40,233 nt of DNA from a virus, in the IMG/VR virus record IMGVR_UViG_3300025086_000080, positions 1 through 40,233 of that record, one strand, 5' to 3'. The number at the start of each line of letters is the position of its first letter. Position 1 is the stretch's first letter. This document shows positions 3,358 to 32,245 of the stretch, in pieces. Under the pieces are notes generated by a model. The model had not been told where the DNA came from. It worked only from the letters and a program-made list of their open reading frames with translations, and ran no database searches. Made by a program: the position numbers and the translations under genes.

Positions 3358-4689
3358 TTAAAGACTTTTATGTTTAAATAAAAAGTTATACTCCTCATCA
3401 CTAAGTTGAGTTTGAGGTTTTTTCTTAAGTGTCTTTATTCTATCTTGTATGACTTTTCTAGTATATTCCCCTAATTTTTTAAAACCATCTCCAGTTTGAT
3501 TTTTATCATCTGTCACGCCACCCATATCGTATTTTGGAGACCTACCTCCCATTAAGTATGCCATAAAAGGTTTAATTCTACCTCCTGTATTATAATACTT
3601 ATCCATTTCATCACCCTTAAACTCTGGATAATCCTGGTTATCACCCTTATTCTTTTTCTTATTTTTTCCAACTAAATTCTTAAAGAATTTTTTTATCTTT
3701 TGTTTACCAGCACCTTTCTTTTTACCTTCAGGTAAATTACCTTCAATAAATTGATCAACCAACTCCTGTTCCTCTCTTTTTTCTAGAGCCTCTTTTCTTT
3801 CTTCATCAGTCATAGCGTCTGCTGTAAGAACTATATCATCTTGAAAAACATCAAGATTAGTTCCAGCAAAAGGATCTCCATGACCCCCTTCTTTAGTAAT
3901 AGTTTCATCTGTATACTTAGCGTCTGAAGTGTCTATTCTATCTTTAGGCTCAAATGGATCTACGATTTGAGAAGGAACTACACGTAACATATCCTCAACA
4001 GCATTTTCTTCTGAGTCTATAAAAACAGGTGTAGAACTACCAGCAAATGGATCACTAGAACCTTTTTGTTGACTTGCATCAAACTCATCAACAAGTTCTA
4101 ATTCTTTAGTTAAATCGGGATTACCTTTTTTGTTTAAAGAATCTATAAAATCTTGTTTCTTTTTATCTGAAGCCTCATCAATAAGGGTATTAATTTCAGA
4201 TGCTGATGGAATCACGTCACCCCCCCCTATCGTAGTAGAGGCACTCCCCTCTGGTGCAGAAACATTAGAGTCGGTTTTAGGCCTTAATTGTGAAACTAAC
4301 TTACCAGCCATCTCTGGCCCATAAGCATTTTCAAACATTTTCATATCACGATCAAATCCAGATCCACTCATATTACCACCATAAGTATCTATCATCGCTT
4401 GAGCAGACTTTTGAAGTTTAGACGTAGCCTTCTCATCTCCCTCAATATTAAATTCCATTTTAGTTTCAACATTTTTTTCTCTAAGTCTATTGTCTAACTC
4501 CTTTACAGGCATGCCCAAGTCTCTAGCGGCCTCAGCCTTTTCCTTTTCTGACATTCGCTCCCAATCATAAAGCTTTATATCCTTAACGGACATTTTTCTT
4601 TTTCCTTTACCCTGAGCCGTAGGATCTTCAGAGAGTGATATTTGATCTAAAATTTCTTGTAATTCGTTTGGATTTAAAATTTCTTCCAT
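3358..4689 (-). CDS. Low-complexity virion-like protein with shared C-terminal tail (443 aa)
   Basis: This is an acidic, mostly disordered-looking protein with no catalytic motif. It contains an internal repeat: LVDEF, DPFAG and VFxD around residues 200-224 recur as DPFAG and VFxD (272-285) and LVDQF (310-314). A lysine-rich segment follows (about 323-348). Near the end are two Y-x-x-G-G motifs (Tyr366 and Tyr387) and the tail PQTQLSDEEY (425-434) plus a short hydrophobic end. That tail is shared with the upstream gene, including a 31-nt perfect DNA repeat. These traits resemble internal or cargo proteins of marine podoviruses rather than enzymes. The start lies 11 nt after the previous stop, and the gene is in the wHTH-led minus operon. 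Confidence 0.6.
   Translation of the reverse strand: MEEILNPNELQEILDQISLSEDPTAQGKGKRKMSVKDIKLYDWERMSEKEKAEAARDLGMPVKELDNRLREKNVETKMEFNIEGDEKATSKLQKSAQAMIDTYGGNMSGSGFDRDMKMFENAYGPEMAGKLVSQLRPKTDSNVSAPEGSASTTIGGGDVIPSASEINTLIDEASDKKKQDFIDSLNKKGNPDLTKELELVDEFDASQQKGSSDPFAGSSTPVFIDSEENAVEDMLRVVPSQIVDPFEPKDRIDTSDAKYTDETITKEGGHGDPFAGTNLDVFQDDIVLTADAMTDEERKEALEKREEQELVDQFIEGNLPEGKKKGAGKQKIKKFFKNLVGKNKKKNKGDNQDYPEFKGDEMDKYYNTGGRIKPFMAYLMGGRSPKYDMGGVTDDKNQTGDGFKKLGEYTRKVIQDRIKTLKKKPQTQLSDEEYNFLFKHKSL
3388..3418. repeat. 31-nt direct repeat in coding DNA, copy 1
   Basis: This is identical over 31 nt to 4785-4815. It encodes, on the minus strand, part of the PQTQLSDEEY tail near the C-terminus of the 443-residue protein. 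Flanking DNA diverges quickly. Confidence 0.9.
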
Positions 4690-4700
4690 AATTTATTTAT

Positions 4701-6080
4701 TTATTTATTTTTTTTCTTTTTTAAAGTTATTCCACCTTTTTTATATCCAGGAATCTTCATACCACTTTTACCAAATAAATACTCATACTCCTCATCACTA
4801 AGTTGAGTTTGAGGTATTTTCTTTAAAGCAGCCTTAGCCTCTTCTGCATTATCATAATCCTTTCCTCCCACACTAACACCTGTTGTTGTTTCTTTAGTTG
4901 TTGTTTCTTCTTTTCCTTTACTACCTCCAGCATTAGCATCACCACCAGTGCTTGAAGGAACCGTTCCAGTATCACCACCACCACCTTCAGTACCTGAGGA
5001 AACTGTCTTATCATCATCCATACCTAAAGGATCAGAATCATCGAATCTATAGGCATCCATACCCCCTTTACTAGGATCTTTTTTATCTACCACCTCAACA
5101 GTTGGGCCTACATAACTTTTAACAACATCATCATCCTGCTCTACAAAAGAAGGAACGTTTCTTATTTTATTAATTTCAGCATCCATATCTAACCCTGTAG
5201 TAGAAAGTGGTTTTGTTTCTAATTCACTTGCTATTTGAGCACCCCTTACGTTTGTAGCGTACTTCTCTAAATCTTTTCCACTCTTTCCTTGAGTAATATA
5301 ATTTTCAAAAACCTGGTCTTTAAAATATTGATTTAGTTGATTTTTCTCATCATCAGAAAGTTTTATGCCTGTAGACGTTCCGCTATCAGAAAGAACATTA
5401 ATCACTTCACCCTTACTATTAAACACAAGTTGCTGGTTAGAGCCTAACCTAATTCCCTTATCACCCTTATCAAAAATCTCTCTAGTAGGATCTAGCTTTT
5501 TCATATCGTCATTATTTAATGTATAACGTATATCATAACTCTCAACCTCTTCACCCTGTTCATTTTTTTTAGTGAAAGTATTTTTACGGAAATTATTCCC
5601 ACGGGTACTAATACCATCATCTTCACCAATCATAGAATATAATTCTGATGGGTTATTATATAGACTACTAAGGCTATCAGCCGTCATAGGTGTATCTGAC
5701 CCTGTTCTTGGAGAAATTAAATCTTTGTTAATTCTATTATATAAATTAGCATACTGATCAAACCCTTGAGCCATACTTAACCTGTCTTTCGTTCTTCCTT
5801 GCTGATCGCCTTGAAAAAATAAACTACCAGAACCAAATCTATCACTATATCCTATATCTGGTAAATAACCAGGAGATCCTTCTCTGGTAATTTGACTTCC
5901 ACCTGATCCCCCTAAGCCTGTATAAGATGTAGGGCCATAAATATCACTATAAAGCATAGGTGATGATTTTATATTAGTATTGACTCCTTCTGTTTCAGAT
6001 GGTACTACAACTCCATTTTGAGCATATGTCATAGGTTTTTTCATTTTACCCCCAGCTCTGTATTTCTTTTTTAATCTCAT
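4701..6080 (-). CDS. Low-complexity virion-like protein with Y-x-x-G-G ends (459 aa)
   Basis: The frame opens further upstream (6125), but the best start is 6080, where ATGA overlaps the stop of the regulator gene. That start gives MRLKKKYRAGG, strikingly like the N-terminus MKNKKIYRPGG of the probable internal virion protein at 29116. The middle is polar. Residues 363-402 are a Gly/Thr/Ser low-complexity linker. The C-terminus carries PQTQLSDEEY (423-432) and YKKGG (Tyr446), followed by a lysine tail. The likely role is a capsid-internal or injected protein, inferred from the N-terminal resemblance. No enzymatic motif is visible. Confidence 0.6.
   Translation of the reverse strand: MRLKKKYRAGGKMKKPMTYAQNGVVVPSETEGVNTNIKSSPMLYSDIYGPTSYTGLGGSGGSQITREGSPGYLPDIGYSDRFGSGSLFFQGDQQGRTKDRLSMAQGFDQYANLYNRINKDLISPRTGSDTPMTADSLSSLYNNPSELYSMIGEDDGISTRGNNFRKNTFTKKNEQGEEVESYDIRYTLNNDDMKKLDPTREIFDKGDKGIRLGSNQQLVFNSKGEVINVLSDSGTSTGIKLSDDEKNQLNQYFKDQVFENYITQGKSGKDLEKYATNVRGAQIASELETKPLSTTGLDMDAEINKIRNVPSFVEQDDDVVKSYVGPTVEVVDKKDPSKGGMDAYRFDDSDPLGMDDDKTVSSGTEGGGGDTGTVPSSTGGDANAGGSKGKEETTTKETTTGVSVGGKDYDNAEEAKAALKKIPQTQLSDEEYEYLFGKSGMKIPGYKKGGITLKKKKNK
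4785..4815. repeat. 31-nt direct repeat in coding DNA, copy 2
   Basis: This is the second copy of the 31-nt repeat, in the C-terminal coding region of the 459-residue protein. The perfect identity suggests a recent duplication or gene conversion of a C-terminal tag between adjacent genes. Confidence 0.9.
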
Positions 6081-6418
6081 TTTAATAAGTTTTTTATAAG
6101 TACCTCCTCTTGTAGTGTGGTACAAAATTTTGTCACAATAATCTTACCTCTTTGTGATATAACATATCTTCTCGCCCTGTTGTGTGATCTTTCTAAATAT
6201 ATGCTAATATAACCATTTTTTACTAGATCTGGTAAGTTTCTGGTTATAAAGGTTAAAGAGCATTGATAGTCTTTTTTTATAGTAGTACCAGTAAAATACC
6301 TTAAGTCGTAAATAAAAAACAAGAACTCAAGATCAGAAACTTTTAGTTTATAATGATCCCTAAAAGAAAACAGTATTTTTCTGTAATTCTTTAGACAGCT
6401 CTTTAGGTCTATTTGCAT
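6077..6418 (-). CDS. MarR-like winged-helix DNA-binding protein (113 aa)
   Basis: Size and pattern fit a small winged-helix regulator. Helices span about residues 6-40, a recognition-helix candidate is SLTFITRNLPDLVKNG (54-69), and a wing follows with ISIYLERSHNRARRYVISQRGK (71-92), the MarR-like arrangement of two strands around a basic turn. It leads the minus-strand operon, and its stop overlaps the ATG of the next gene (ATGA), so regulator and virion-like protein are translationally coupled. A -7 element at 6446-6439 lies just upstream, back to back with the plus-strand promoter at 6479-6486. It could therefore control both directions. That it binds this intergenic region is inference. 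Confidence 0.65.
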   Translation of the reverse strand: MQIDLKSCLKNYRKILFSFRDHYKLKVSDLEFLFFIYDLRYFTGTTIKKDYQCSLTFITRNLPDLVKNGYISIYLERSHNRARRYVISQRGKIIVTKFCTTLQEEVLIKNLLK

Positions 6419-6438
6419 TGATTTAAATTATAGTAAAG

Positions 6439-6446
6439 CAAATATA
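6439..6446 (-). promoter_or_regulatory. Candidate promoter of the minus-strand regulator operon
   Basis: The minus strand reads TATATTTG, an exact TAnnTTTG match, about 20 nt before the start at 6418. No TTG is present at the ideal distance. It is divergent from the element at 6479-6486, 32 nt away. Confidence 0.5.
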
Positions 6447-6478
6447 AATAAATATTTCTTATATTGAAAATAATTACC

Positions 6479-6486
6479 TATATTTG
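6479..6486 (+). promoter_or_regulatory. Candidate promoter of the fibre module
   Basis: TATATTTG matches TAnnTTTG exactly and lies 28 nt before the ATG at 6515. It also shows that the longer reading from 6464 is wrong, because that start would precede the transcript. The -33 region is weak. Confidence 0.55.
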
Positions 6487-6514
6487 TGAATCATTAAATT
6501 TAAAAAATAATAAT

Positions 6515-6919
6515 ATGGCAATATCAGGAACAAAAGCAACGGAAGCTGCTTTCGGTCAATATGGAAGCACATACCTTACTGGAGATGGAGCGAAGATGGA
6601 TTTTAAAACAAGTGGTAAGTCTCCTAAGTTTATATGTGCAATAACAATACTTACTGCTGACACTTCATTTCAAACTTTAACTAACCACAATAGTACAAGG
6701 TTGGATAATGCTTGCATAAGTACGGTAGATGGAGAAGATGAAATAGATGCTGAATGGCAGTGTGCTACAGCTAACACAAGTAACTTTGCAACAGTAATAA
6801 CAACTTCTCATACGTTTCCTGCGGGAGTAACTATATATGGAGCTTGGAGCTCAGTGGAATTAAATGCGGGATCTTGCATTTGTTATTTAGCTCCAACAGG
6901 TAAAACAGTAGAAGTTTAA
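6515..6919 (+). CDS. Small beta-rich virion protein, decoration or fibre-associated (134 aa)
   Basis: The start at 6515 gives MAISGTKATEAAFGQYG. The frame is open from 6464, but that start lies upstream of the predicted transcript start. The protein is rich in Ser, Thr, Ala and Gly with alternating hydrophobics, and has a C-terminal HTFPAGVTIYGAWSSVELNAGS segment of a kind I associate with small surface proteins of marine phages. It has four cysteines and no enzyme motif. It is followed 9 nt later by the LamG-like protein, so a capsid-surface or fibre-base role is likely. Confidence 0.55.
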   Translation: MAISGTKATEAAFGQYGSTYLTGDGAKMDFKTSGKSPKFICAITILTADTSFQTLTNHNSTRLDNACISTVDGEDEIDAEWQCATANTSNFATVITTSHTFPAGVTIYGAWSSVELNAGSCICYLAPTGKTVEV

Positions 6920-6928
6920 TAATATAAT

Positions 6929-7813
6929 ATGTTAGGTTTAGGAAATAGTATAACTTCAGGTAGCGTTAGCTCCTTACCATTCTCACCAGAGCAAGTATCT
7001 GGACTGGTTGGTTGGTATGACTTTACTGACGCTGACACTGTGTTTCAACCAGATGGACCTACTCATAGTCCTATCACAATAGGTAAACCAATATCAAAAG
7101 TAACCAATAAGGCTTATGATGGTTTAGGAGCAAGCTCTGTTTCGTTAAATGCTTTTCTTCAACAACCAGTTTCTGGCCGAAGACCTGACTGGAAAGTGGG
7201 AACAAATGGTTTAAATTGTGCAGAATTTACTGTTAATCTTCAAAGCTTATATTCAATGTATTCAACCCCAACAGGTGCTGCATCAGCAAATAGAATGGGA
7301 GGGTTTACACTTGATCATGATAACGTAAGTATGTTTATTGTTTTTAAAACTGATCAAAGCACTATATCCACAGCTAATGACCAAGGACTTGTTTGTTTTG
7401 TAGACAGTTCCAGGCTAACTTCTCAAATTTCTTTAGAGGCGGTTTCAGATCAAATAGAATACCAATCGAAAGATGGTACCCAAAGGGTTGTGAGTAACAC
7501 AGCTTGGGCTTCTCCAGATTTTGAGGCTTGGAGCTTTGTTAATAATAGCACTAATAGTAGGATATGGAATAGCGTAGGCAGCCCTGTTGCTACAGAGGCC
7601 GCTTTGGATGACACCCATAATAGAGATATGACCGCAAATAGTTCCCGTATAATGTTTCTTGTTGGAGCTAGAGACGGGGCCAACTCAACACTTGGTGCTA
7701 GTGCGGATTCAGGTACTGGTGCTATACATGAAGTTCTTATTTACAATAATGCTGTTAGTGATTCTAATTTAAGCAAAATACAAAAGTACCTTCATGATAA
7801 ATATGGTTTATAA
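6929..7813 (+). CDS. LamG/concanavalin-like surface protein (294 aa)
   Basis: The opening SPEQVSGLVGWYDFTDADTVF, followed by repeated short beta-strand-like segments and a final GAIHEVLIYNNAVSDSNLSKIQKYLHDKYGL, is characteristic of LamG-like jelly-roll proteins. In that family the WYDF/LVGWY motif marks the first strand and the IxExLIYNxxLSDxxxxxIxxYL ending marks the last strand and helix. Such domains bind carbohydrate or polymer surfaces, and in phages they occur on fibres and capsid decorations. It is in a fibre module between a small beta-rich protein and an adhesin-like protein. The target glycan cannot be inferred. Confidence 0.75.
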   Translation: MLGLGNSITSGSVSSLPFSPEQVSGLVGWYDFTDADTVFQPDGPTHSPITIGKPISKVTNKAYDGLGASSVSLNAFLQQPVSGRRPDWKVGTNGLNCAEFTVNLQSLYSMYSTPTGAASANRMGGFTLDHDNVSMFIVFKTDQSTISTANDQGLVCFVDSSRLTSQISLEAVSDQIEYQSKDGTQRVVSNTAWASPDFEAWSFVNNSTNSRIWNSVGSPVATEAALDDTHNRDMTANSSRIMFLVGARDGANSTLGASADSGTGAIHEVLIYNNAVSDSNLSKIQKYLHDKYGL

Positions 7814-7829
7814 TAAATAATAAAATAAA

Positions 7830-9212: not shown

Positions 9213-9243
9213 TTGTATTAATAAAAAATTTTTACTATATTGG
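9213..9243 (+). promoter_or_regulatory. Weak Bacteroidota-like promoter
   Basis: TTG at 9213-9215 is followed after 20 nt by TATATTGG, one base off TAnnTTTG. It stands 23 nt before the ATG at 9266, in the only gap between the fibre module and the next run of genes. Confidence 0.4.
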
Positions 9244-9265
9244 TAGAAATTTAATTTAATATAAC

Positions 9266-9929: not shown

Positions 9930-9932
9930 TAT

Positions 9933-10514: not shown

Positions 10515-10515
10515 T

Positions 10516-11092: not shown

Positions 11093-13120
11093 ATGGAAGG
11101 AAAAATAAGAGTAAATGGATTAGAATTTAAGCTCCCTCCTAAGCCCAAGAAAAAAGATATACTTTTTTCAGATCTAAAAAAGAAAGATCAAAAGTGGACG
11201 AGGACAGAGCTTCCAGATACCCTTTCAGAAGAAACAGCAGCCAGTCATTCAAAATTTATAAACAAAGAGTTCGACAGAAGAAAGAATGGTGTTTGGTTTA
11301 TGAATAATGGAAAACCTACATATATAACGGGCGAACATTACTATTATTTAAACTGGTGCAAACTAGATATAGGTTACCCTGAATATAGAGATAGGGATAG
11401 AAGGTTCTTTATTTTTTGGGAAATATGTAAAAATGATCCAGAGTGCTTTGGAATGGTTATGGTAAAGCATCGTAGAGAAGGGGCTTCTTATAAGGGTGCC
11501 GCTATGCTATTACATGAAATAACATCTAGATATAATTCACATGGTGGTATTATAAGTAAAACAGGTGTAGATGCTAAATCATTATTTACTGATAAGTTGG
11601 TTTATATGTTTAGGCATTTACCTTTTTTCTTTCAACCTATTATAGATGGTAGTGATAATCCTAAAAGTACATTAAGCTTTAATGCTCCAGGACAGAAAAT
11701 TTCTAAAAATTTTAAGAAGATTGTAAAGTCAGAGGCTTTAAATAGTAAGATAGACTGGAGGAATACAAAAGACAACTCTTATGACTCAGTGAAGTTAATT
11801 AGATATTTATGTGATGAGGGTGGTAAATGGGTGGACGCTAATGTAGAAAAGAATTGGCAAGTTGTTAGATCCTGCTTAACACTAGGCGATAGAATTATAG
11901 GAAAATGTTTTATGCCAACTACAGTTAATGAAATGGCTGACTCAGGTGGTGAAAGATTTAAAAACATATGGGACGATAGTAGTATAGAAGAAAGAGATGG
12001 AAATGGCAGGACTAGATCTGGTATGTATAGTTATTTCACTCCAGCTTACGATGGGTATGAAGGATTTATAGATGAGTACGGTATGTCTGTTATTAGTAAT
12101 CCTACAAAAGAACAGGCTAAGTTTATAGGAAAAAATATAGGATCAAAAGAATATCTTCAAAACGTAAGAGAGGGGTATAAAAAAAATACAACAAAACTTT
12201 CTGAAGAAAAAAGACAAAGACCTTTTACTGTTGAAGAGGCTTTTAGAAGTGATTCAAGACATAGTCCTTTTGATGTAGAAAGAATCTATCAACAAATGGA
12301 TTATAATGAAGAGTCGGAAGGATTAATAGTAAAGGGTGATTTTATATGGAAAGATGGAATGAAGGACACTAAAGTTGTTTGGAGACCAGGATCTACAGGT
12401 AGATGGAGAATATCTTGGTTGCCTCCAGAAGATAGAAGAAATAGTATAAAAATGAAAGGCGTTAAAAAATGCCCAGGAAATGAAATAGAAATGGTAGCTG
12501 GATGTGACCCTTATGATCATGATACAACAACTGACGGAAGGAGATCAGACGCTGCTTGTTATGTGTATAAAAAATTCACAATGATGGATGATTTTTCTAA
12601 TGTGTTTGTTTGTGAATATATAGCTAGGCCACCTAAGGCAGAAATGTTTTATGAAGATGTTCTTAAAACTTGTGTTTTTTATGGTTGCCCTATATTAGTA
12701 GAGAATAATAAAATAGGTATTATAAAGTATTTTGAAAGAAGAGGTTATTATGAGTATTTAATGGATAGACCAGAATCAACTCATACAGACAGTAGCAGAA
12801 AGCAAAGAACAAAAGGAATACCATCAACAGGTGTTGCTGTATTAAATGCACAAACGGAAGCTATTGCTTCTTATGTGTATGATTATATAGGCATACTTGA
12901 TATAGAAACAATGGAAATGGGTAAATGTTATTTTAATAGACTACTAGATGATTGGAGTCGATTTGAACCAGATAATAGAACAAAGTATGATGCTTCAGTA
13001 GCATCTAGCTTAGCTTTACTTGGTGCTCAAAAACATGTTACAAAAAAGAAAGTTAAAAAAATAAGTATTAACTTTATAAAAAAATATAATAATTCAGGAT
13101 TAATATCTAAGAGAGTATAG
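11093..13120 (+). CDS. terL: Terminase large subunit, packaging ATPase-nuclease (675 aa)
   Basis: The N-terminal ATPase half has a divergent Walker A, KHRREGASYK (residues 125-134), in which the usual GKT/S is GAS. Walker B is LIRYLCDE (235-242) and a coupling motif is PTTVNE (275-280). The nuclease half shows acidic residues in the expected order: Asp472 in AGCDPYD, Glu537 in ILVENNK and Asp633 in KYDAS. The length is normal for TerL. The motor translocates DNA through the portal and cuts it. The portal gene begins with no gap after its stop (TAGATG). The divergent Walker A resembles that of TerL in crAss-like and related Bacteroidota phages. Confidence 0.9.
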   Translation: MEGKIRVNGLEFKLPPKPKKKDILFSDLKKKDQKWTRTELPDTLSEETAASHSKFINKEFDRRKNGVWFMNNGKPTYITGEHYYYLNWCKLDIGYPEYRDRDRRFFIFWEICKNDPECFGMVMVKHRREGASYKGAAMLLHEITSRYNSHGGIISKTGVDAKSLFTDKLVYMFRHLPFFFQPIIDGSDNPKSTLSFNAPGQKISKNFKKIVKSEALNSKIDWRNTKDNSYDSVKLIRYLCDEGGKWVDANVEKNWQVVRSCLTLGDRIIGKCFMPTTVNEMADSGGERFKNIWDDSSIEERDGNGRTRSGMYSYFTPAYDGYEGFIDEYGMSVISNPTKEQAKFIGKNIGSKEYLQNVREGYKKNTTKLSEEKRQRPFTVEEAFRSDSRHSPFDVERIYQQMDYNEESEGLIVKGDFIWKDGMKDTKVVWRPGSTGRWRISWLPPEDRRNSIKMKGVKKCPGNEIEMVAGCDPYDHDTTTDGRRSDAACYVYKKFTMMDDFSNVFVCEYIARPPKAEMFYEDVLKTCVFYGCPILVENNKIGIIKYFERRGYYEYLMDRPESTHTDSSRKQRTKGIPSTGVAVLNAQTEAIASYVYDYIGILDIETMEMGKCYFNRLLDDWSRFEPDNRTKYDASVASSLALLGAQKHVTKKKVKKISINFIKKYNNSGLISKRV

Positions 13121-16776: not shown

Positions 16777-18228
16777 ATGGCAACAGTAAATATACCTAGT
16801 GGTATGCTGATAAAGCCTTCAGCGGTTCAAGTTGCAACTAACGAGAACTATGTAAGTGCTTTAACGGCTACTTCGGGTCAATTTAGACAAAGAGATGTCT
16901 CTGAAAAACTTGTTAAGCGTTATGGTGAACAAGGTATTACAGGACTTCTTGAATTAATGGGGTCGAAAGCTCCATGTTCAAACACTTCATTTGAACACTA
17001 TGAGGAAACTTATAGACATCACAGTATAACTGCACAATTTTCATCTGCTTCAGCAAACAATGCTACTGAGGTAACTCTTACGCTTCAATCAAGCTCTTAT
17101 AATGAAAACTTTATAGGGGGTGACGATTATTCAGCAGTAAGACCAGGTGATATCTTAAGAGATAAAGATGGTGACATGTGGTACGTGATTAGTTCACAAA
17201 TGCCTAGTGCATCTACAAGAACTGTTAAAGTTCACTCTATAGATGGTGCTAACCAGGCAAAAACAGGTACAGGTGATGATTATGAGTTCGCAATCATTGG
17301 TAACGCTCACCCTGAAGGTGGGATACAGCCAGATGGTTTATCTCCATTAGTACATGAATACTCTAACAAGTGTATGATCTTAAAAGAATCTTTTGAGGTA
17401 ACAGGTTCTGAGGCTACAAACATTGTATATGTAAAAGTTGACAATGAAAAAATGGGCTCAGGGTATGTATGGTACTTAAAAGGTGAATCAGATACTTATA
17501 AGAGATTTATGGATTATTCTGAGATCATGATGATGCTAGGTGAGGATATCACTAACGCTACTTTAGAAGGTGTTAATACAACTTTTGAAAGTGGTACGGC
17601 ACAAAGTAACTCAGGTCTTAGAGGAACTCAAGGTTTACTTCCTTGGATAGAAACAGATGGACAGTCTATGGACTTAGGATCTGCTTCTATTACAATGGCA
17701 GACTTTGACGCTATAATCAAATCATTAGATAAATATAGAGGTGCTAAAGAATACGCTATGTATTCAGGTATCAATCTATCTTTAGATATTGATGATTTAT
17801 TAGCATCTCAAGGAGCTTATGCTGCTGGCGGTGCTAACTATGGTGCTTTCCAAAATAGTAAAGATATGGCGTTAAACTTAGGTTTCAACTCATTCACTAG
17901 AGGAGGTTACACATTCCATAAGAAAACTTATGATTTATTTAACCACCCTAGATTATTAGGAGCTACTGGATTCAACTACAACGGATACGGTGTTTGTATT
18001 CCTATGGATATGCAAAAAGACGCTAAGTCTGGTGATAGCATTCCATCGTTAAGAATACGATATAAAGCTGCTAATGGTTATTCTAGAGATATGGAGCACT
18101 GGTTAACTGGTTCTGCTGTTCTAGCAAACAAAACTAACACTAAAGATGTGCTACAATCGCACTACAGATGTGAAAGAGGTTTTGAAGGCTTTGCGGCTAA
18201 CAGATACATGTTAATCAAGAAATCTTAA
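16777..18228 (+). CDS. Major capsid protein (483 aa)
   Basis: Length and position after portal and scaffold match an HK97-fold capsid protein of the crAss-like/P22-like type. The N-terminal arm is followed by a region with LVKRYGEQGITGLLELMGSKAPC (about residues 46-68). Then come a beta-rich inserted domain (about 80-170), the segment YLKGESDTYKRFMDYSEIMMMLGED, and a C-terminal A-domain-like region (about 300-483) ending in RGFEGFAANRYMLIKKS. It has the even composition of an abundant virion protein. It is the likely client of the GroES-like protein. Confidence 0.8.
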   Translation: MATVNIPSGMLIKPSAVQVATNENYVSALTATSGQFRQRDVSEKLVKRYGEQGITGLLELMGSKAPCSNTSFEHYEETYRHHSITAQFSSASANNATEVTLTLQSSSYNENFIGGDDYSAVRPGDILRDKDGDMWYVISSQMPSASTRTVKVHSIDGANQAKTGTGDDYEFAIIGNAHPEGGIQPDGLSPLVHEYSNKCMILKESFEVTGSEATNIVYVKVDNEKMGSGYVWYLKGESDTYKRFMDYSEIMMMLGEDITNATLEGVNTTFESGTAQSNSGLRGTQGLLPWIETDGQSMDLGSASITMADFDAIIKSLDKYRGAKEYAMYSGINLSLDIDDLLASQGAYAAGGANYGAFQNSKDMALNLGFNSFTRGGYTFHKKTYDLFNHPRLLGATGFNYNGYGVCIPMDMQKDAKSGDSIPSLRIRYKAANGYSRDMEHWLTGSAVLANKTNTKDVLQSHYRCERGFEGFAANRYMLIKKS

Positions 18229-23487: not shown

Positions 23488-23491
23488 ATAA

Positions 23492-26400
23492 ATGCCTAGC
23501 CAACAATTAAAAAGAGTATTTATAGGTGGACTAGACAAGGACACTGATCCTAGACTATTGAAGAATGGTGATTATCACTATGCTTTAAATATAAGAAATA
23601 TATCTTCTGAGTCAAACACAGAAGGTGTTATAGAAAATATAAAAGGTAATAAAATAGTTTCGTATGAATTTCCCAATCTAGTTGGAAAGTGCACGCCTCA
23701 AAGAACTGTTCTTTTTATGCCCTCTAATAATTACATATCTAATTATTCTAACTGGCCAGAAGCTTATGATTACGTTATACAACAAAATCCTTCAGCGTAT
23801 TTTAATGGACAGCTTATAGATAACCCTATATCTACTTATGTTTCAGATACAGAGCAGGGTTATTATCCAGCAAATTTTAATATAGGACTTACAAGTTCTT
23901 TATCAAATGTAAACACTCCAGAAATACAGGCTCCTATAGAATATGAAGGGTCTACTGCTGAAAATCAATTACTTTACTTAACAGCTTTTGTAGAAACTTA
24001 TGGGCCAATGTTTTCGAATGCTGGGGTAACAGTTACTGTTATAAATAATAATTCTGAATACTGGAATGACGAAGACTGGTTTGAAAACACTAATCTTATA
24101 ACAAGTAATCCTAATTATACTCCTGGTCAAATTTATGCCTATGCTTTATTATTTGAAGGTACTTGTAGCACCTCTGCTGAACAGTTTCATATAAATATAT
24201 TAACTCAAGGAAGTCCTGATGTTAACATTGTAAATGGTCCGTATGGAGATAGTGATCAGTTATTAATACCTGAGAATGGTTTTGTTTCAATGGGATGGAA
24301 TGTGGTTGATGAGGCAAAAAAAAACTATATGGAAGGTGGCTTTACAGCCTTAACTAATTTAGGTCAACATCCAGAAATAACCCCTGTAAACTACACTTGT
24401 ATAGGGACTTATGAGGATACTAAAAATGATCATATATACTATATGGTGGCTAGTGATCCTGGAGCTGGGCTTCATCATATATTAAGATATAACTTACAAT
24501 CTAATAATATAACCACAATTTTTAGAGACAGTGGTAATCCAGGAACAAGTGTATTTAATTGGAGAAAGGAGTTTTTAATAAATGATATTGATAAAGTAGG
24601 AGATGTTCTTTACTGGACCTCAAGGCAATATGGGGAGCCAAATGCTCTTAATGTTATAAAGTCTAGATCTAGTATGGCTTTGATTGATGGTATAGTAGGG
24701 GATTATCAAGTAAACGAAGAGGGAGTTGTTACTGGTTATTCATTAAGTGATTATTATCCATATCAATTATATAGCCCAACTTATCCATCGGCAGATAAAA
24801 AACAATATGTAGAGCTAATTAAAAGACCTCCTCTTGATTATCCTGTATATACATATTCAACAGATCCAAATTTTAAAAAGAATAACCTACATGGTCACAT
24901 GTGGCAATTTAAATATAGGTATCATTTTTATGATAAAGAAGTAAGTGCATGGTCCCCTATTAGTGATATTGTTCCCTCTCAAGTTAGTATGAATAATATA
25001 CCTCAAGAAAACAATCAATCATCTGATAATAAAATAGAGGTAACTATAAAAAACTCATCTGGAATTGTTGAGTTTATTGAAATAGCTGTATTAAAATGTA
25101 AGGACCTTGGAAATTTTCCAAAAGGAAATAGAGGTGACTTTAAAAGTATGGCTAAAATAAAAAATGATTACGGTGCTTGGTTAACAAATGAAGATTCAAC
25201 ACAAACAGTTAATTTTTATAATGATAAAATGTACACTAATTTAGATAGCGTAGAGAGCACAAAGTTGTTTGATAACGTTCCTAGATCAGCTACAACACAA
25301 ACTGTTTTATCTAATAATAGATTAGCTTTTGGTAATTATACAGAAGGTTTTGACGTTCCTTTAACAAATACATCATTAACCCCTCAATATGGGTTTACAT
25401 CTAACCCAACAGCCCTAACAGGGCAAGAGGCTCAGTCTATTGTTTTATTTCCTTACTGGACTAATAATCAACAGTCCAGCACAAATGATTTAGCTTATAC
25501 GCTTGGTAGTATTTTAAACACAACTAACGCACCAACTTTAACTATAGATCCTAGTTTAAATCAAGGTGATGAAGATACTATAAATGCTTGGTGGGGATCT
25601 GATCCACTAGGTCTTGGTAACCCATTAGGTACTGATACTGATTCAGATGGTTTTGTGGACACTATAGCTAGTGATAGTACAGCTAATATAGCTTTTAATT
25701 CTCACAGTTTAAACACAGTAGGTCAATCAACTCAAGTTGTTATTAATGCTAGCGACCCATCATTAGTAGAGTCTTCCACGGACAACCCTCTTGGAAATGG
25801 TGTTTATACGGGATCTAATGCTGGCGGTGCAGAAGGTTTTCCTAGAGTTAAATTGTTATTTAATTTTGGTTTAGTTAATTGGGGAGATGGTGCTACAATT
25901 AATATAGATCTTAGTTGGAAGTTTAAAGTAAGAAGAGAGTTTAATCAATTAGGGACAGCTAAGTCTCAAGACTCTCAAGAGCACGTTTGTAGATTTAATT
26001 ATACAATACAAACACTACCTGGAGAGACAGATGTAGCTACACAAATGAGTCACGTTGCAGAGCAGTTAAGAGCTGCGATAAATCCTACTACATCAAATGA
26101 CATACCTTCATATAATGACGAGTCAGATATAGATGGGCTAGGTACAGATAAACCAGAACAAGCGAGTGATTATGATTTTTCTTGGCACAAAAGACCTATT
26201 GTAGATGGCAGTACGTTAATATTAGAATGGGTAGCACCAAAGAAGAACGTATTTCCTTCAGCACCTCCTAATTTAAATCTTTATGAATATAGAATGATTA
26301 GCTCTAATGGTGGTAACGTTCCTGGATATAGTTTTTTAATTAATAACATCAATGCTAATCAACCAGGTTCTAATAATAACTTTAAAAACACAGCACAACT

Positions 26401-29071
26401 TACTTATGGTACAACGCCTTATAATCAATATGGCGGTGGAATAAACTCTGTATCATCTTTTAAAAGTGGAGCCTTTCATAATTTTGGACTTGTTTATTAC
26501 GATGAAAAAGGCAGATGCTCTACAGTTCTTGTAGATGATGAATCAAAAACTTATGTTAAGTTTCCAACAGAAAGAACAAATGCGGATGTGGATATAGAGA
26601 ATGATCTTATAGATGAAAATAATATAGATATAAATGGACCTGTAAGTATAATGTGGAAAATAAATCATCAAGCTCCTGATTGGGCTAGTCATTATAGATG
26701 GTTTTATTCTAGAAATAATACTGTTGATGAATTTGTTCAGTTTAGATCATTAAAGGCTCATGTTAATCAAAGTGATGTTGTTGATGATGATCGTATATAT
26801 ATAAGTATGGCTGGCTTAAAGGGTAGAGATGATTCTTATATACCACTTGATGCTGTTAGTGAAGAAGGTATTCCTAACCCAGATGTTAATATATTTGACT
26901 ATAGGTTTAAAAAAGGGGATAGAGTTCGTTTTATAACAACGGGTAGTCAATCAGCTTTAAGCCCAGGTCAAGAACAAAATGAACTTATTTCGGATCAATA
27001 TATAGACGTTCACGTTTCAGGATTTAAATATTATAGTGCGTTTGATGAATCGGCACCAATACAAAACAATCAAGAGTTAAATGCTTTAAACTCTGATGGG
27101 TCAGAAGATGGGTATTTTTTAATTGTACGTGAAGTTAAAGATGCTCAAGGCAATCCAATACCTGGATACTCTAAGCAAGATGTTATAAATGGAACGGATA
27201 ACTTTAGACAATCTGTTATGGAAATATACAGAGCAAAAGAAGAGACAGGGCCTGAGGAAACATTATACTATGAGTTTGGAACAAAATATAAAATAGACCA
27301 AGCCTCTAGAAGACATAGAGCTCCTATTGCAGATCAGGGAGGCTCCTTTACAGAAGATGTTTTTGGTAACGTTACGTCAAACACTCCAGCAGTGGGTCAG
27401 TTTACAACAGGTGATATTTATTATAAATCTAGAATAATGCAACAGGTAACAGGAAATGATATTCCTTTTAATGTAGAGGATTATTATTTAAACGATTATC
27501 AAGAAACTAATCACTTTAGTATAGGTAGAGCGAATATATATTCTGTAAACTATAAAGAGGATAATAGAGAAGCTTCTATCACTTATTCAGATGTTTATCA
27601 ACCAGATACGGATTATAACGGATTAAACTCATTTAACTTATCTTTATTTAATTGGGAGGATTATGATAGAATAGATGGTGGTATACAAAAAATAGAATCT
27701 AGAGACACCGATCTTATAATGATTCAAGAAGACGAAACGTATAGAATACCTGTTGAGAAGGATGTTATTTTTAATGCTAAAGGTGAGGCTAATGTTGCTT
27801 TATCTAATAAAATACTTGGAACAAGAACTTTCTTTTTTAGTAAATATGGTATAAGTAAAAATCCAGAATCATTCGTAAAGAATGGAAATATTTTCTACTG
27901 GACTGATATAAAAAGAGGTGCTGTACTAAGATTATCTAGAGATGGTATTACGGTTATATCAGACCTTAAAATGTCAGATTACTTTAGGGATAGATCAAGT
28001 GATTATGATAAGTACGATCCACAATATAACTGGGACACAAATTACGGAACTATTACGGGTGCTATGTTAATGTCTGATAATAAACACTTTAGAATTAAGG
28101 GTGGTTGGAATCCTAAACACAATGAATACATTGTACAGTTTCCTGAGATAATGCAGAATCAAGATGAGTGGGAGTATTATGAAAGTGTTTTTGAAGGCTC
28201 TGATGAGGAGTGGGAGGATTATATAGCTGATCGCACAACAATAACAGAAGGTTCTGTAGTTTCTTTTGCTGAAAAACAAAAAAGATGGATGACGTTTTAT
28301 TCTCATGTTGCAGATTATTATGGTAAAATAAATAGAAAGTTTGTGTCATGGAAAGATGCAGGGCTTTATGTTCACGATGAGGATGAGGAAAACTATAACA
28401 CATTTTATGGGGATCTATATCAAACAATGTTAGATTTCTATTTTAACAAAGGCCCATCAACAGTAAAGGGGTATAAAACAATTACCTTAGAATCAACACA
28501 AAAAACGGATGTAGGTTTAACTACAGATCTATCTTCAACATCTATAAATCAAAACAATTTTGACGAAAGAGAAGGTAAGCTTTATGCACAAATACCTTTT
28601 GTAACGCAAAATGGGGTAGGTGGGGACATAATTGGCGTTGGTACAGGGAGCACTGTTGCGGACGAGGATGGCGTGCTTACATCTACTATAACTGGCTTAG
28701 GAACAAATTTTACTAATTCTAATCTTATAATAGGAACTTCGGATGACCCTACTTCAAATGAGTATGGAGATCAATTATTTTACTTTGATGAAGATACTCA
28801 ACAAAACGTTTTAGTTGGAACAATATCTACTATAATAAGTGACACAGAATTAACATTAGTAGCACCACCAACAACACTTGATGAGGATGGCAATATTATT
28901 GATTTAACTTTTGATGGGTTGTTTTTATTTGTTATTAGAAATGCTTTTGCAGAAGGAGATAGAATGAAGGGTAGGTATATGGAAACAAAACTTAGTAAGC
29001 TAACTAATCAACCTATGGAAATATTTAGTGTGGGATCTACTGTTTTTAACAGCGAACTTAGTGATGATTAA
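23492..29071 (+). CDS. Giant stabilization/muzzle-type tail protein (1859 aa)
   Basis: The opening FIGGLDKDTDPRLLKNGDYHYALN (about residues 10-33), then GVIENIKGNKIV, and later INDIDKVGDVLYWTS, WQFKYRYHFYDKEVSAWSPISD, FGLVYYDEKGRCSTVLVDD and FYWTDIKRGAVLRLSRDGITVISD, are the pattern of the P22 gp10-like stabilization protein that crAss-like phages use as tail muzzle. It closes the tail tip and releases DNA on contact. It seems enlarged relative to what I know of the family. Additions include a Ca-binding-like loop DTDSDGFVDT (near 711-720) and a C-terminal beta domain (about 1740-1810, with TGLGTNFTNSNLIIG). It ends the neck operon; the next gene has its own promoter. Confidence 0.75.
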   Translation: MPSQQLKRVFIGGLDKDTDPRLLKNGDYHYALNIRNISSESNTEGVIENIKGNKIVSYEFPNLVGKCTPQRTVLFMPSNNYISNYSNWPEAYDYVIQQNPSAYFNGQLIDNPISTYVSDTEQGYYPANFNIGLTSSLSNVNTPEIQAPIEYEGSTAENQLLYLTAFVETYGPMFSNAGVTVTVINNNSEYWNDEDWFENTNLITSNPNYTPGQIYAYALLFEGTCSTSAEQFHINILTQGSPDVNIVNGPYGDSDQLLIPENGFVSMGWNVVDEAKKNYMEGGFTALTNLGQHPEITPVNYTCIGTYEDTKNDHIYYMVASDPGAGLHHILRYNLQSNNITTIFRDSGNPGTSVFNWRKEFLINDIDKVGDVLYWTSRQYGEPNALNVIKSRSSMALIDGIVGDYQVNEEGVVTGYSLSDYYPYQLYSPTYPSADKKQYVELIKRPPLDYPVYTYSTDPNFKKNNLHGHMWQFKYRYHFYDKEVSAWSPISDIVPSQVSMNNIPQENNQSSDNKIEVTIKNSSGIVEFIEIAVLKCKDLGNFPKGNRGDFKSMAKIKNDYGAWLTNEDSTQTVNFYNDKMYTNLDSVESTKLFDNVPRSATTQTVLSNNRLAFGNYTEGFDVPLTNTSLTPQYGFTSNPTALTGQEAQSIVLFPYWTNNQQSSTNDLAYTLGSILNTTNAPTLTIDPSLNQGDEDTINAWWGSDPLGLGNPLGTDTDSDGFVDTIASDSTANIAFNSHSLNTVGQSTQVVINASDPSLVESSTDNPLGNGVYTGSNAGGAEGFPRVKLLFNFGLVNWGDGATINIDLSWKFKVRREFNQLGTAKSQDSQEHVCRFNYTIQTLPGETDVATQMSHVAEQLRAAINPTTSNDIPSYNDESDIDGLGTDKPEQASDYDFSWHKRPIVDGSTLILEWVAPKKNVFPSAPPNLNLYEYRMISSNGGNVPGYSFLINNINANQPGSNNNFKNTAQLTYGTTPYNQYGGGINSVSSFKSGAFHNFGLVYYDEKGRCSTVLVDDESKTYVKFPTERTNADVDIENDLIDENNIDINGPVSIMWKINHQAPDWASHYRWFYSRNNTVDEFVQFRSLKAHVNQSDVVDDDRIYISMAGLKGRDDSYIPLDAVSEEGIPNPDVNIFDYRFKKGDRVRFITTGSQSALSPGQEQNELISDQYIDVHVSGFKYYSAFDESAPIQNNQELNALNSDGSEDGYFLIVREVKDAQGNPIPGYSKQDVINGTDNFRQSVMEIYRAKEETGPEETLYYEFGTKYKIDQASRRHRAPIADQGGSFTEDVFGNVTSNTPAVGQFTTGDIYYKSRIMQQVTGNDIPFNVEDYYLNDYQETNHFSIGRANIYSVNYKEDNREASITYSDVYQPDTDYNGLNSFNLSLFNWEDYDRIDGGIQKIESRDTDLIMIQEDETYRIPVEKDVIFNAKGEANVALSNKILGTRTFFFSKYGISKNPESFVKNGNIFYWTDIKRGAVLRLSRDGITVISDLKMSDYFRDRSSDYDKYDPQYNWDTNYGTITGAMLMSDNKHFRIKGGWNPKHNEYIVQFPEIMQNQDEWEYYESVFEGSDEEWEDYIADRTTITEGSVVSFAEKQKRWMTFYSHVADYYGKINRKFVSWKDAGLYVHDEDEENYNTFYGDLYQTMLDFYFNKGPSTVKGYKTITLESTQKTDVGLTTDLSSTSINQNNFDEREGKLYAQIPFVTQNGVGGDIIGVGTGSTVADEDGVLTSTITGLGTNFTNSNLIIGTSDDPTSNEYGDQLFYFDEDTQQNVLVGTISTIISDTELTLVAPPTTLDEDGNIIDLTFDGLFLFVIRNAFAEGDRMKGRYMETKLSKLTNQPMEIFSVGSTVFNSELSDD

Positions 29072-29072
29072 C

Positions 29073-29103
29073 TTGTTTAAATAATTTTAAAAAACTATAT
29101 TTG
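29073..29103 (+). promoter_or_regulatory. Bacteroidota promoter of the cargo module
   Basis: TTG at 29073-29075 and TATATTTG at 29096-29103 are separated by 20 nt, 12 nt before the ATG at 29116. It separates transcription of the cargo-like genes from the neck genes. Confidence 0.65.
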
Positions 29104-29115
29104 TAAATATTTATT

Positions 29116-30270
29116 ATGAAAAACAAAAAAATATATAGACCAGGAGGAATGCCTACTTACGGAAAAGGGGGTAAAACATACTCTACAAAAAAGTATAAAA
29201 AGGACCCTAGAAAGGCTGATGAAGGTTTTTTTCAGTCAATGACCAGTTTTCTAAACAACCCTTTAGTTTCTATGGGTGGAGACCTTCTTGGTTATGGTTT
29301 ACAGTATGCCGCTACTCAACAACAACAAAATGCACTACAGGATGCTTTAGATAATGTTCAGGACCCAGGTCAGGTTATAAGTGGGCTAGAAGGTGTTACA
29401 GACGTTCTTACTCCAGATCCAAGTGCCTCAATAAAAGATAGAATTTCTGAAGTTGAAGGAAGAAGTACAGATGTAGAAATAGATACTACAGCTTTAGGTG
29501 ATAAAAGAGATGCTGCGGAGCAATCGTCAGCAAATGTTTTAGCAAACTTAAGTAAGGGTGGAGCAAAAGGAATGGCTGGTATAAGTCAAGTTTTAGATGC
29601 ACAAAATAAATCTGATTTAGGTATAACTGACCAAGCTTTAAATATAGAGGCACAAGAAACCTCATTAGAGGAGCAGGCTAAAAAACAAAAAGAAGCTGAT
29701 TTAACAGGATTAACAACTGCTCTTGGTGGTCAGGAGTTTAAAGCAGATGAAACGATGTCTGATATATATAAACAAGAACTTGAAAGTACCGCAGATTTAG
29801 AAACAGCTATAATGATAGCTCAATTACAAAATGTTGGTGCTGGATCAACAATGTTAGGAAACATTTTAACAAGTAAAGATGGAAGCATAGTCCCTGAATA
29901 TGAAGAGGGTGGTAAGAATGAAGAGGTAATGGAAGAAGGTGGAGACAGTGAGAATACAATGGAGCCTGGTCAACCAGAAGTTTCTCCAGGAGAAGAGGAG
30001 CACGCAACAAATCCTATAGATCTTGTTAGAGATGGCGAGAAGATAGGGGAAATGACAGGTGGTGAGGTTATTATGCCATCTAAAGACGTGAAAGTTTTAG
30101 AGCAATTATTGTCAAATAAAAACTCTGATGGGGTTATGAGGTTAATGGCGATGTTAATGAATAAATGGACTAAAGAGGCTGTAGAGCATCAAGAAAAACA
30201 AATAGGTGGAACTAAAAATGCTAGAGGTGGAATGAGAATGTACAAGCCTACGAGCAAAATAAATTACTAA
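29116..30270 (+). CDS. Probable internal virion protein with Y-x-x-G-G motifs (384 aa)
   Basis: The N-terminus MKNKKIYRPGGMPTYGKGG has two Y-x-x-G-G motifs (Tyr7 and Tyr15) and a third at Tyr262. Residues about 35-250 are helical and Ala/Gln-rich. The C-terminal part has NPIDLVRDGEKIGEMTGGEVIMPSKD (about 297-322) and a helical MRLMAMLMNKW. The GGEVIMP segment resembles GGEYVxNP motifs in other marine-phage virion proteins. No enzyme motif is visible. A capsid-internal or injected role fits its place between muzzle and giant cargo. Its N-terminus is matched by the minus-strand protein starting at 6080. Confidence 0.55.
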   Translation: MKNKKIYRPGGMPTYGKGGKTYSTKKYKKDPRKADEGFFQSMTSFLNNPLVSMGGDLLGYGLQYAATQQQQNALQDALDNVQDPGQVISGLEGVTDVLTPDPSASIKDRISEVEGRSTDVEIDTTALGDKRDAAEQSSANVLANLSKGGAKGMAGISQVLDAQNKSDLGITDQALNIEAQETSLEEQAKKQKEADLTGLTTALGGQEFKADETMSDIYKQELESTADLETAIMIAQLQNVGAGSTMLGNILTSKDGSIVPEYEEGGKNEEVMEEGGDSENTMEPGQPEVSPGEEEHATNPIDLVRDGEKIGEMTGGEVIMPSKDVKVLEQLLSNKNSDGVMRLMAMLMNKWTKEAVEHQEKQIGGTKNARGGMRMYKPTSKINY

Positions 30271-30274
30271 TAAA

Positions 30275-32245
30275 ATGGGTGTATTAACTGGATCGCCAAA
30301 AGGGCCGATACAACTTCCTGATTATAACCAAAACTTTATAGCTGTAAAGCAGCTTAGGTTAAAAAGAAAAGAGCTTGAGCTAAAAGAAAGGCTTGCTGAG
30401 CAACAATTAAACAAAGGTAAGACTAAGGGGCCACCTTTAGCTAAGTTTAGTAAAACTGAAGCCAACTTCCAAGATAGATTTCATTCAGTACATGATGAGG
30501 CGATGGATCAATTAGATCAATTTGCTATAAATAACGCTGATAAACTAAATCCAAACAGTGATTTATATGATATAAAAACTGACAGGATTTTTCAAAACAT
30601 GCAGAAAAGTGTAACAAGAGCTGCTGATCATAGTAATAGTTGGGTTACAAACGGAACTGATTTTTTATCTTACATTAATGAAAAAGATGAATACGGAAAT
30701 AGAAAAGTAGATGTTTCTAGCTTAGAACAAAAACCTAAATACCTAAATATAAACACGGTTCAGACTAGCATGGATTTAAGAAATGAACCATTTATTTTTC
30801 AAAATAGCTTTTGGACAAATGACGAAACTGTACAGCAGCAATTATCTTTAAAAGAAGGTGGGGACCCTAATAATATAAATGATTATTTAGTTGATGAAAA
30901 TGGGTTCTTTTTAAGTAAAGGGGGAGGATTGGTAGTAGAACTTCAGTCAAATGGTCAAAACGCCCAGTCAGGATTGTTTACGATAGATGATGTTTTTAAT
31001 CAAGAAATTTCTGGAGACAGTATAAGGTTTGATAGTAACGGTAATTTAATGTATGGGGAAAAAATGTTTTTTGAGCATTTTGACACAGGGTTTTTTGATA
31101 AAAATAAATACCAAACATTAGATAAGCCTACAAACTTTATATACGAATTAGCTGGAAAAAAACTTAAGTTTAGTAATTTATTAAACCAAGTATCTGAAAA
31201 TAAATACGAAATTGATAATGAAGCTATTGGAAAAATAAGACAACAGGGTATAGATTTATTTTCTTGGAACGGTCAAACGTGGGGTAATGACTATGGAGAC
31301 GCTTTAGCTCTTCAGGTTGCTAGAAAATACGTTTCTGAAAAATATGGTATACAGGAAAGTGAAGTTGATCAGGCTCAAATAAATGCTGTTCTTCCTATGA
31401 TAAAGAACAATGAGATATTAGCTGAGGAGTTTAGGTCTGAAGATGGTGGATTTATAAAATCTGTATATGACCAAAAAGAAATTAAAACATTTAATGATTA
31501 TGCTGGAGAGTTAATTTTAGAAAGCTACGCTAATCAAAATAGATTTAGTAAAGAGAAATTTACATCAAACCGTGCAGAGATAAAGGAGCAATTAAAAATT
31601 AATGAATATAAATGGGAGTCATCTCAAATGATAGGAAATATTGCTCACGTATATCCTACTCACGATAATTTTACTCAAAAAACAGCCTTTACTACCTATG
31701 GATATACAGGGGTTCAAGAGAACATAACAGGATCGGATTATTTAACTTTTCAAAATAACACTAACTTTATTACTGTAGAGGATGTAGCTCAACAATATAT
31801 AGAACAAAAGGCTGGTACATTTGTAGGTGCACAGCACGCTATGATACCTATTGACTCTAGAACTGGAAAGATAATGGAGGGTACCTGGATTGATAATAAT
31901 AATCAATTTAAACCATTAACTGCTGAGGATGCTAAATATTGTGTTATTGTCCCAATGTTTAAAGGTCACTTTGAACCAGAAGATCCAGATGCTATAAAAA
32001 GAGCAATTTCAAATGATAATGCAGATGCTAAACCAAGTGAAATTGTTACAATAGACGGTGTTGAGACTTACGTACCTATGACTCAAATGAATACGATGTC
32101 ATCGAACCTAAAGCTTTATTCTAAGTTTATAGAAAAAGCTGAAGAAGTTAATAACAATGGGGTTGTGGGTAAATCTGATAGTCCGTCATACGCAGAGGGT
32201 GGTATTGTAAGTAAAAAAAATAACTGGAAACTTCCAGGATCATAA
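30275..32245 (+). CDS. Probable internal virion protein (656 aa)
   Basis: There is a helical, Lys/Glu-rich N-terminus (about residues 20-75, with KQLRLKRKELELKERLAEQQLN). A long middle has no recognised domain and is rich in aromatic and polar residues. A C-terminal YAEGGIVSKKNNWKLPGS has a Y-x-x-G-G motif at Tyr639, 18 residues before the end. The start follows the previous stop by four nucleotides. It probably belongs to the ejected or capsid-internal set, which is inference from order and from the shared motif. Confidence 0.5.
   Translation: MGVLTGSPKGPIQLPDYNQNFIAVKQLRLKRKELELKERLAEQQLNKGKTKGPPLAKFSKTEANFQDRFHSVHDEAMDQLDQFAINNADKLNPNSDLYDIKTDRIFQNMQKSVTRAADHSNSWVTNGTDFLSYINEKDEYGNRKVDVSSLEQKPKYLNINTVQTSMDLRNEPFIFQNSFWTNDETVQQQLSLKEGGDPNNINDYLVDENGFFLSKGGGLVVELQSNGQNAQSGLFTIDDVFNQEISGDSIRFDSNGNLMYGEKMFFEHFDTGFFDKNKYQTLDKPTNFIYELAGKKLKFSNLLNQVSENKYEIDNEAIGKIRQQGIDLFSWNGQTWGNDYGDALALQVARKYVSEKYGIQESEVDQAQINAVLPMIKNNEILAEEFRSEDGGFIKSVYDQKEIKTFNDYAGELILESYANQNRFSKEKFTSNRAEIKEQLKINEYKWESSQMIGNIAHVYPTHDNFTQKTAFTTYGYTGVQENITGSDYLTFQNNTNFITVEDVAQQYIEQKAGTFVGAQHAMIPIDSRTGKIMEGTWIDNNNQFKPLTAEDAKYCVIVPMFKGHFEPEDPDAIKRAISNDNADAKPSEIVTIDGVETYVPMTQMNTMSSNLKLYSKFIEKAEEVNNNGVVGKSDSPSYAEGGIVSKKNNWKLPGS

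Follow-up and report, generated by a model that had tools for sequence, protein, structure and literature searches.

The window analyzed here is the whole of viral record IMGVR_UViG_3300025086_000080 in IMG/VR (40,233 nucleotides), which contains a podovirus late module. Four of its proteins, of 443, 459, 384, and 656 amino acids (aa), carry the short motif Y-x-x-G-G (YxxGG), which is the subject of this analysis. An earlier note, made from the sequence alone, had listed eight YxxGG sites in these proteins and proposed a head-packaging or processing signal shared by cargo proteins. All eight sites are present in the translations, and we found one additional site, Y378 (YLMGG), in the 443-aa protein. 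The genes and sites are given below, where C1 and C2 are the positions of the cargo proteins gp45 and gp46 of crassvirus crAss001, as named in the sections of its structure paper used here (PMC10172136).

3358..4689, minus strand: 443-aa protein with three C-terminal YxxGG motifs (five homologous sequences aligned)
3580..3594, minus strand: Y366-NTGG, followed by RIKPF, in the 443-aa protein (equivalent Y-x-x-GG ahead of KPF in 5/5 aligned sequences)
3544..3558, minus strand: Y378-LMGG in the 443-aa protein (YLMGG invariant in 5/5)
3517..3531, minus strand: Y387-DMGG in the 443-aa protein (3/5)
4701..6080, minus strand: 459-aa protein with an N-terminal and a C-terminal YxxGG (homologues at 79, 46, and 32% identity)
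6048..6080, minus strand: leader MRLKKKYRAGG (Y7-x-x-GG) of the 459-aa protein (kept in 3/4 aligned sequences)
4731..4745, minus strand: Y446-KKGG near the C-terminus of the 459-aa protein, within GMKIPGYKKGGITLKKKK (YxxGGI in 4/4)
29116..30270, plus strand: 384-aa protein in the crassvirus cargo C1 position, directly after the muzzle gene (synteny with crAss001)
29134..29148, plus strand: Y7-RPGG in the 384-aa protein (Y-x-P without GG in most orthologues)
29158..29172, plus strand: Y15-GKGG in the 384-aa protein (N-terminal motif conserved in the C1-slot family as [YF]xxGG, 13/14)
29899..29913, plus strand: Y262-EEGG in the 384-aa protein, in a disordered linker ahead of the C-terminal domain (predicted local distance difference test score [pLDDT] ≈31; similar motifs in some orthologues)
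30275..32245, plus strand: 656-aa protein in the crassvirus cargo C2 position (synteny; 7 orthologues)
32189..32203, plus strand: Y639-AEGG at the C-terminus of the 656-aa protein (no YxxGG in other cluster members)

Together, the four proteins contain 9 motifs compared to 0.62 expected from full shuffling (maximum of 5 in 5000 shuffles) or 1.60 expected when glycine runs were kept (maximum of 8 in 5000 shuffles). All other window proteins hold 3 motifs, which is the chance level (2.5-4.7 expected), with one each in the major capsid protein (Y348), a 460-aa protein (Y361), and a 1859-aa muzzle-type protein (Y279). Thus, the frequency of the motif in the four proteins is well above chance and does not simply reflect glycine richness, as the earlier note had allowed that it might. 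When each protein was tested singly under shuffling that preserved glycine runs, p was 0.0006 for the 443-aa protein and 0.004 for the 384-aa protein, both significant; the 459-aa (p 0.16) and 656-aa (p 0.24) proteins are not significant by counts alone, so that conservation must carry the latter two cases.

Conservation in homologues, the other point on which the proposed signal could have failed, was found for the 384-aa (13/14), 443-aa (Y378, 5/5), and 459-aa (Y446, 4/4) proteins. The 459-aa protein starts at the ATG at 6080, upstream of which an in-frame TTG exists, and its homologue at 32% overall identity keeps MKFKKKYRAGGK N-terminally and GMKVPGYKKGGIQLKKKK C-terminally. For the 384-aa protein, an alignment of 14 C1-slot sequences (the window protein and 13 orthologues at 25-33% identity) contains [YF]xxGG at the Y15 column in 13 (12 with Y and 1 with F), with free variation of the two residues in between (GK, KK, RM, RA, SK, FI, SI, and SV); by shuffling, only 0.8 of the 14 sequences would be expected to have the motif within the first 55 residues. 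The absence of YxxGG from the other members of the 656-aa cluster indicates that the Y639 motif may be incidental. Most sites are indeed terminal, as had been claimed, although Y262 of the 384-aa protein is internal. Likewise, the N-termini of the 459-aa and 384-aa proteins do align position for position (Y7 and GG at 10-11), but GG at 10-11 is absent from most 384-aa orthologues, which makes this match a weak pillar. The Y348-AAGG motif of the major capsid protein (17818..17832, plus strand), which is present in all 16 capsid proteins of related contigs, was considered as an instance of the same tag and rejected, because it is altered in most other capsid proteins (elemo, phi18:3, phi38:1, and crAss001), although kept in Panino; we read it as an ordinary structured loop.

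Two further terminal peptides were noticed in these proteins. In most 384-aa orthologues, Y-x-P stands close to both termini and may be a second terminal motif. The neighboring 443-aa (residues 421-438; 3376-3429) and 459-aa (residues 419-436; 4773-4826) proteins, which are otherwise unrelated, have in common LKKxPQTQLSDEEYxxLF, with 15 of 18 residues identical, a version of which is kept in contig L225.

None of the four motif proteins belongs to a known family in a PHROGs scan, and a Pfam scan gave only one match, below threshold, for the 459-aa protein. AlphaFold2 gave a model of the 384-aa protein that is too weak to assign a fold (mean pLDDT 46): the N-terminus is disordered, residues 38-240 are helical, a disordered linker that includes Y262 follows, and a small C-terminal domain spans ≈301-366. 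All three motifs lie outside secondary structure in this model, which would fit a docking peptide on a flexible tail. Sequence and fold searches with the 656-aa protein gave no match; its AlphaFold2 model (mean pLDDT 57) is too weak for fold assignment and returned nothing below E 2 in Foldseek.

We examined the spacing of the motif in 17 related contigs chosen by terminase, counting distinct contexts. For Y-(x)n-GG with n of 0 to 7, the counts were 61, 63, 182, 73, 71, 70, 55, and 71, respectively, so that the spacing of two residues is 2.7 times as frequent as the mean of 66 for the seven others (Poisson 1e-31). No enrichment was found in control viral contigs, bacterial contigs, or motif-free relatives. 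The flanks of the motif are rich in lysine in the marine clade (4.1-fold at -1 and 3.5-fold at +5), and copies are concentrated in a few fast-evolving proteins, such as a 597-aa protein with 12 copies and a 174-aa protein with 7. Multi-copy proteins recur in three slots: ≈1.5-10 kb upstream of the terminase gene, downstream of the giant gene that ends the window, and the C1 slot. The first two of these hold non-homologous proteins between genomes. When we looked for genes whose presence follows that of the motif, 2 clusters were present in 11/11 motif-rich and 0/2 motif-poor genomes, which are too few genomes to interpret.

Two side observations were also made. An 88-aa basic protein (window 1600-1866) reads KVGDGKDVSH where its homologues in other genomes read IYGKGGKDVSH, which illustrates how the motif can be gained or lost at one fixed site. 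In addition, EF-hand- or dockerin-like loops (DxDxDGxIxxxD), for example YKKGGLSEDQSREMDKDKDGDIDSKDL, occur in or beside several YxxGG proteins (Fisher p 0.02 for the association in the 17 contigs). Loop-bearing examples also occur in L137, L178, and L249, and at these positions:

G003:8304-8906
G015:23303-24571
G016:12618-13142

Placement of the motif at the N-terminus is also non-random. A motif tyrosine at exactly residue 7 of the protein was found in 13 proteins from 8 BLAST clusters (p 1e-7 at the cluster level). A scan of IMG/VR for the leader MKxxKKYxxGG matched at least 120 stretches, compared to 35 for the same pattern with one extra residue between Y and GG; among the matches listed, some are internal or out of frame, and 24 of 122 lie in short closed frames. 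When only frames of at least 100 codons or open at a contig end were counted, at least 69 leader matches stood against 5 for the spacing control. When aligned, the 67 non-redundant leader proteins of at least 60 aa show 7% mean column identity, and their only invariant positions are those imposed by the search pattern; the set as a whole has matches to ten PHROGs and to two DUF families of Pfam. The terminase family phrog_6681 is encoded by 32 of the 41 leader contigs of at least 18 kb and by none of the 9 spacing-control contigs. A stricter leader pattern gave 24 matches in ≈85,000 cellular genomes, mostly in one clostridial enzyme family and none recognisable as a tagged phage-type protein; the clostridial matches are presumably a carboxylase-type protein read from an inner methionine. 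The terminase distribution and the cellular scan imply that the leader is largely a property of the phrog_6681 phage group. A large group of phages from marine and freshwater habitats carries YxxGG, often within the first ten residues, on many proteins that are not otherwise related to each other, and the motif also occurs in the gut crassvirus cargo protein considered below.

Upstream of the leader genes in L140, L149, L159, L163, L204, and L217, TATATTTG-like sequences end ≈5 bases ahead of the start codon. These sequences resemble the -7 promoter elements of Bacteroidota, suggesting Bacteroidota hosts and very short 5' leaders. Just beyond the window, in a near-identical record (G006:46435-47139; L102:6435-7139), is a secreted-looking protein with a Cys-rich stretch and the C-terminal sequence GIYIxxGKxKY, which we take to resemble a type IX secretion sorting tail. 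This protein (cluster 22) is found in 12 relatives and adjoins tagged leader genes in several genomes.

The gene order of the window places two of the four motif proteins in a crassvirus-like context, together with the following genes.

11093..13120, plus strand: terminase large subunit, the clade marker (phrog_6681, E 1.5e-156)
23492..29071, plus strand: 1859-aa muzzle-type tail protein (Pfam PF25729 crAss_MUZ_C, E 2.9e-8)
32262-40233: giant open frame (2,657 aa as far as the window extends; 3,916 aa in the near-identical record)

The PHROGs scan also identified the portal (phrog_6547) and capsid protein (phrog_13704). The crassvirus muzzle C-terminal domain (PF25729), a feature of Crassvirales membership, is present in the window genome, and the 1859-aa protein gave a profile match to crAss001 gp44 (E 2.9e-5); a phmmer search of solved structures with this protein gave no match. 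The muzzle-type gene is followed by the genes for the 384-aa and 656-aa proteins and the giant open frame, which is the order gp44-gp45-gp46-gp47 of crAss001. The giant frame, in the giant-cargo position, has no YxxGG in its window part and gave a DUF7178 match below threshold and nothing else. By terminase, the nearest named relatives are spring podovirus, Elemovirus, Maribacter phage Panino, Pachyviridae, and Pervagoviridae; identity to the best of them (spring podovirus, Elemovirus, and other flavophages) is 44-30%, and identity to crassviruses is ≈26% over 78% of the query, in pairwise comparison rather than a tree.

Both cryo-electron microscopy and mass spectrometry detected crAss001 gp45 in the virion, where its residues 425-552 lie on the portal and 214-245 lie within the tail barrel (PMC10172136). 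We examined 11 crassvirus gp45 homologues and 7 gp46 homologues. The gp45 homologues contain 37 [YF]xxGG motifs, compared to 7.4 expected from full shuffling or 17.2 with glycine runs kept (maximum of 33 in 1000 shuffles). The motif occurs within the first 25 residues in 6 of the 11 (0.24 expected), after a basic stretch such as MAKKKIKRRGKMPPNIFDTGG, and some internal copies precede a common GIHI segment. The crassvirus motifs mostly have F, whereas those of the window clade mostly have Y. The seven gp46 homologues hold one copy altogether.

These results establish a non-random, conserved, modular, and clade-specific peptide that is also enriched in a cargo family proven to be in the crAss001 virion. 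We tentatively favor, at slightly less than even confidence, the interpretation that [YF]-x-x-G-G is a short linear docking motif on the disordered ends of proteins that the Bacteroidota-type podoviruses of this group load into the virion. We infer both that the motif itself causes loading or holding in the particle and what its partner may be. The most recognizable form of the motif would be the N-terminal leader M-K-x-x-K-K-Y-x-x-G-G, in which the aromatic residue and glycine turn would bind one common structural partner during assembly, with the portal, inner capsid surface, scaffold, or tail barrel as candidates. Any protein given the peptide would therefore be held in the particle, and several copies per protein may add avidity. 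The peptide would then act like the capsid-targeting sequence of phage T4, putting unrelated, fast-changing internal proteins into the head. A broader reading, which we consider less likely than not, is that [YF]xxGG serves crassviruses and flavophages alike as a general tag that can be transferred between proteins and loads those that are ejected from or internal to the virion, with recognition by a conserved pocket of the portal, capsid, or tail barrel.

Several results weigh against the docking interpretation. We found no virion proteomics for the clade, and the 443-, 459-, and 656-aa proteins are not known to be in the particle. Profile-profile comparison of the 384-aa family with gp45 was not significant (E 0.03-0.08, low probability). 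According to the cited sections, crAss001 gp46 is in the virion (PMC10172136) and yet is motif-free, and the C1-slot protein of phi18:3 is also motif-free, although its record annotates virion presence from tandem mass spectrometry, which implies that loading needs no motif in phi18:3. Elemo, phi18:3, phi38:1, and Panino share core genes with the window yet show no enrichment. Finally, the L005 homologue of the 459-aa protein lost the leader motif through an in-frame gap of exactly seven residues (YRAGGKM), which indicates that the motif can be lost as a unit. The earlier observation of a recurring motif was confirmed and extended, and its interpretation as a signal shared by cargo proteins is partly supported. 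The motif is non-random, occurs on non-homologous proteins of relatives, often at fixed N-terminal positions, and is enriched in a C1 protein known to be in the crassvirus virion; assignment of the 443-, 459-, and 656-aa proteins as cargo, direction of packaging by the motif, and cleavage of the motif are unsupported, and Y639 is unconserved.

The lysine-rich flanks in the marine clade are also what would be expected if tails with aromatic residues and glycines neutralized or organized packaged DNA, or bound DNA after injection. This explanation, which we consider rather unlikely, gains from the net charge of proteins with at least two copies (+0.02 to +0.05 per residue, compared to slightly negative for the others) and from the tandem arrangement of copies (12 in 597 aa; 7 in 174 aa). 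However, charge fails to explain the need for tyrosine and exact spacing, many internal gp45 copies are neutral or acidic (FAEGG and FADGG), and single conserved copies at fixed N-terminal positions are unlike bulk condensation. The low-complexity tandem repeats, the predicted disorder of the tails, and the frequent gain and loss of the motif, as in the L005 deletion, could instead mean that the motif has no specific function and arose in Gly/Lys-rich disordered tails of an AT-rich genome through repeat expansion and shared ancestry. We regard this as unlikely, and it is already disfavored by the preference for one exact spacing over seven others, by the fixation of Y and GG with two variable residues between them in 13/14 orthologues, by the invariance of YLMGG in 5/5 sequences, by the residue-7 placement on non-homologous proteins, and by the absence of enrichment from the other viral and bacterial contigs tested.

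Processing, which the earlier note had offered beside packaging, would have a phage protease cut at or after GG during head maturation, removing an N-terminal propeptide and releasing small internal peptides. Double glycine is a classic protease signal, one of the 67 leader proteins (from other contigs) weakly matches a head-maturation protease (phrog_1752, E 2e-4), and the 11 N-terminal residues are similar in size to the propeptide removed in T4 (PMC9026906). We nevertheless consider processing quite improbable: no prohead-protease family was recognized among the late-module proteins scanned (these were part of the proteins, and divergent proteases could escape), the residue after GG is only loosely constrained, and cuts at the C-terminal copies would take off only a few residues. 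Equally improbable is that the tagged proteins are delivered effectors whose peptide binds a conserved host target instead of a part of the virion. The tagged proteins evolve quickly, those in a given slot vary from genome to genome, and most lack known families, and gp45 is expected to exit the particle N-terminus first in the cited account (PMC10172136), all of which agrees with host-side action. Nonetheless, gp45 has the same motif and resides in the capsid and tail, which points to the particle; there is also no known host factor, and delivery would still require a loading signal.

On the question of how crassviruses and their relatives choose the proteins stored in head and tail, no targeting signal is described in the sections of the crAss001 structure paper used here (PMC10172136), and a text search of 5.4 million papers for 'YxxGG' or 'FxxGG' returned nothing on phages. 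A defined motif of 5-11 residues makes this question testable in crAss001, provides a text-search handle for injected proteins among phage genes of unassigned function, and could supply a tag to load reporter proteins into phage particles. If the motif were a general tag, such an address label would let phages swap rapidly evolving injected proteins.

Three known systems offer comparisons with the docking motif. The podoviruses of Flavobacteriia (Elemovirus, Pachyviridae, and Pervagoviridae) are the closest named phages by terminase (39-30% identity) and have the same gene order as the window; unlike in the window clade, YxxGG enrichment and tagged leader proteins were not found in them. Crassvirus gp45 (PF25725 crAss_CARG1) occupies the same slot as the 384-aa protein, after the muzzle gene and ahead of C2 and the giant cargo gene, and both have a basic N-terminus followed by [YF]xxGG, with further copies along the chain. 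However, the 384-aa protein is half the length of gp45 and lacks its portal-bound PF25725 domain, which was absent at E 0.05 (gp45 itself matches at 2.3e-66). Profile-profile comparison with flavophage C1-slot proteins was, as with gp45, suggestive but not significant (E 0.01-0.05, low probability), and the C1-slot profile had no credible match among solved structures. Position and the weak, non-significant profile alignment suggest that the 384-aa protein is homologous to gp45.

The capsid-targeting sequence of T4 consists of ten N-terminal residues on the divergent internal proteins IPI-IPIII and is thought to let the phage load varied proteins (PMC9026906). Like this sequence, the leader is an N-terminal peptide of ≈10 aa common to non-homologous, fast-diverging proteins. 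In contrast, the leader is unrelated in sequence, ends in GG, and lacks the conserved glutamate or gp21 signal (I/L-x-E); YxxGG also occurs C-terminally, internally, and in many copies; and T4 has the prohead protease gp21, of which no counterpart was recognized among the proteins scanned here. At most, the leader would resemble the T4 peptide in role; its sequence and cleavage signal are different, and its partner probably is as well.

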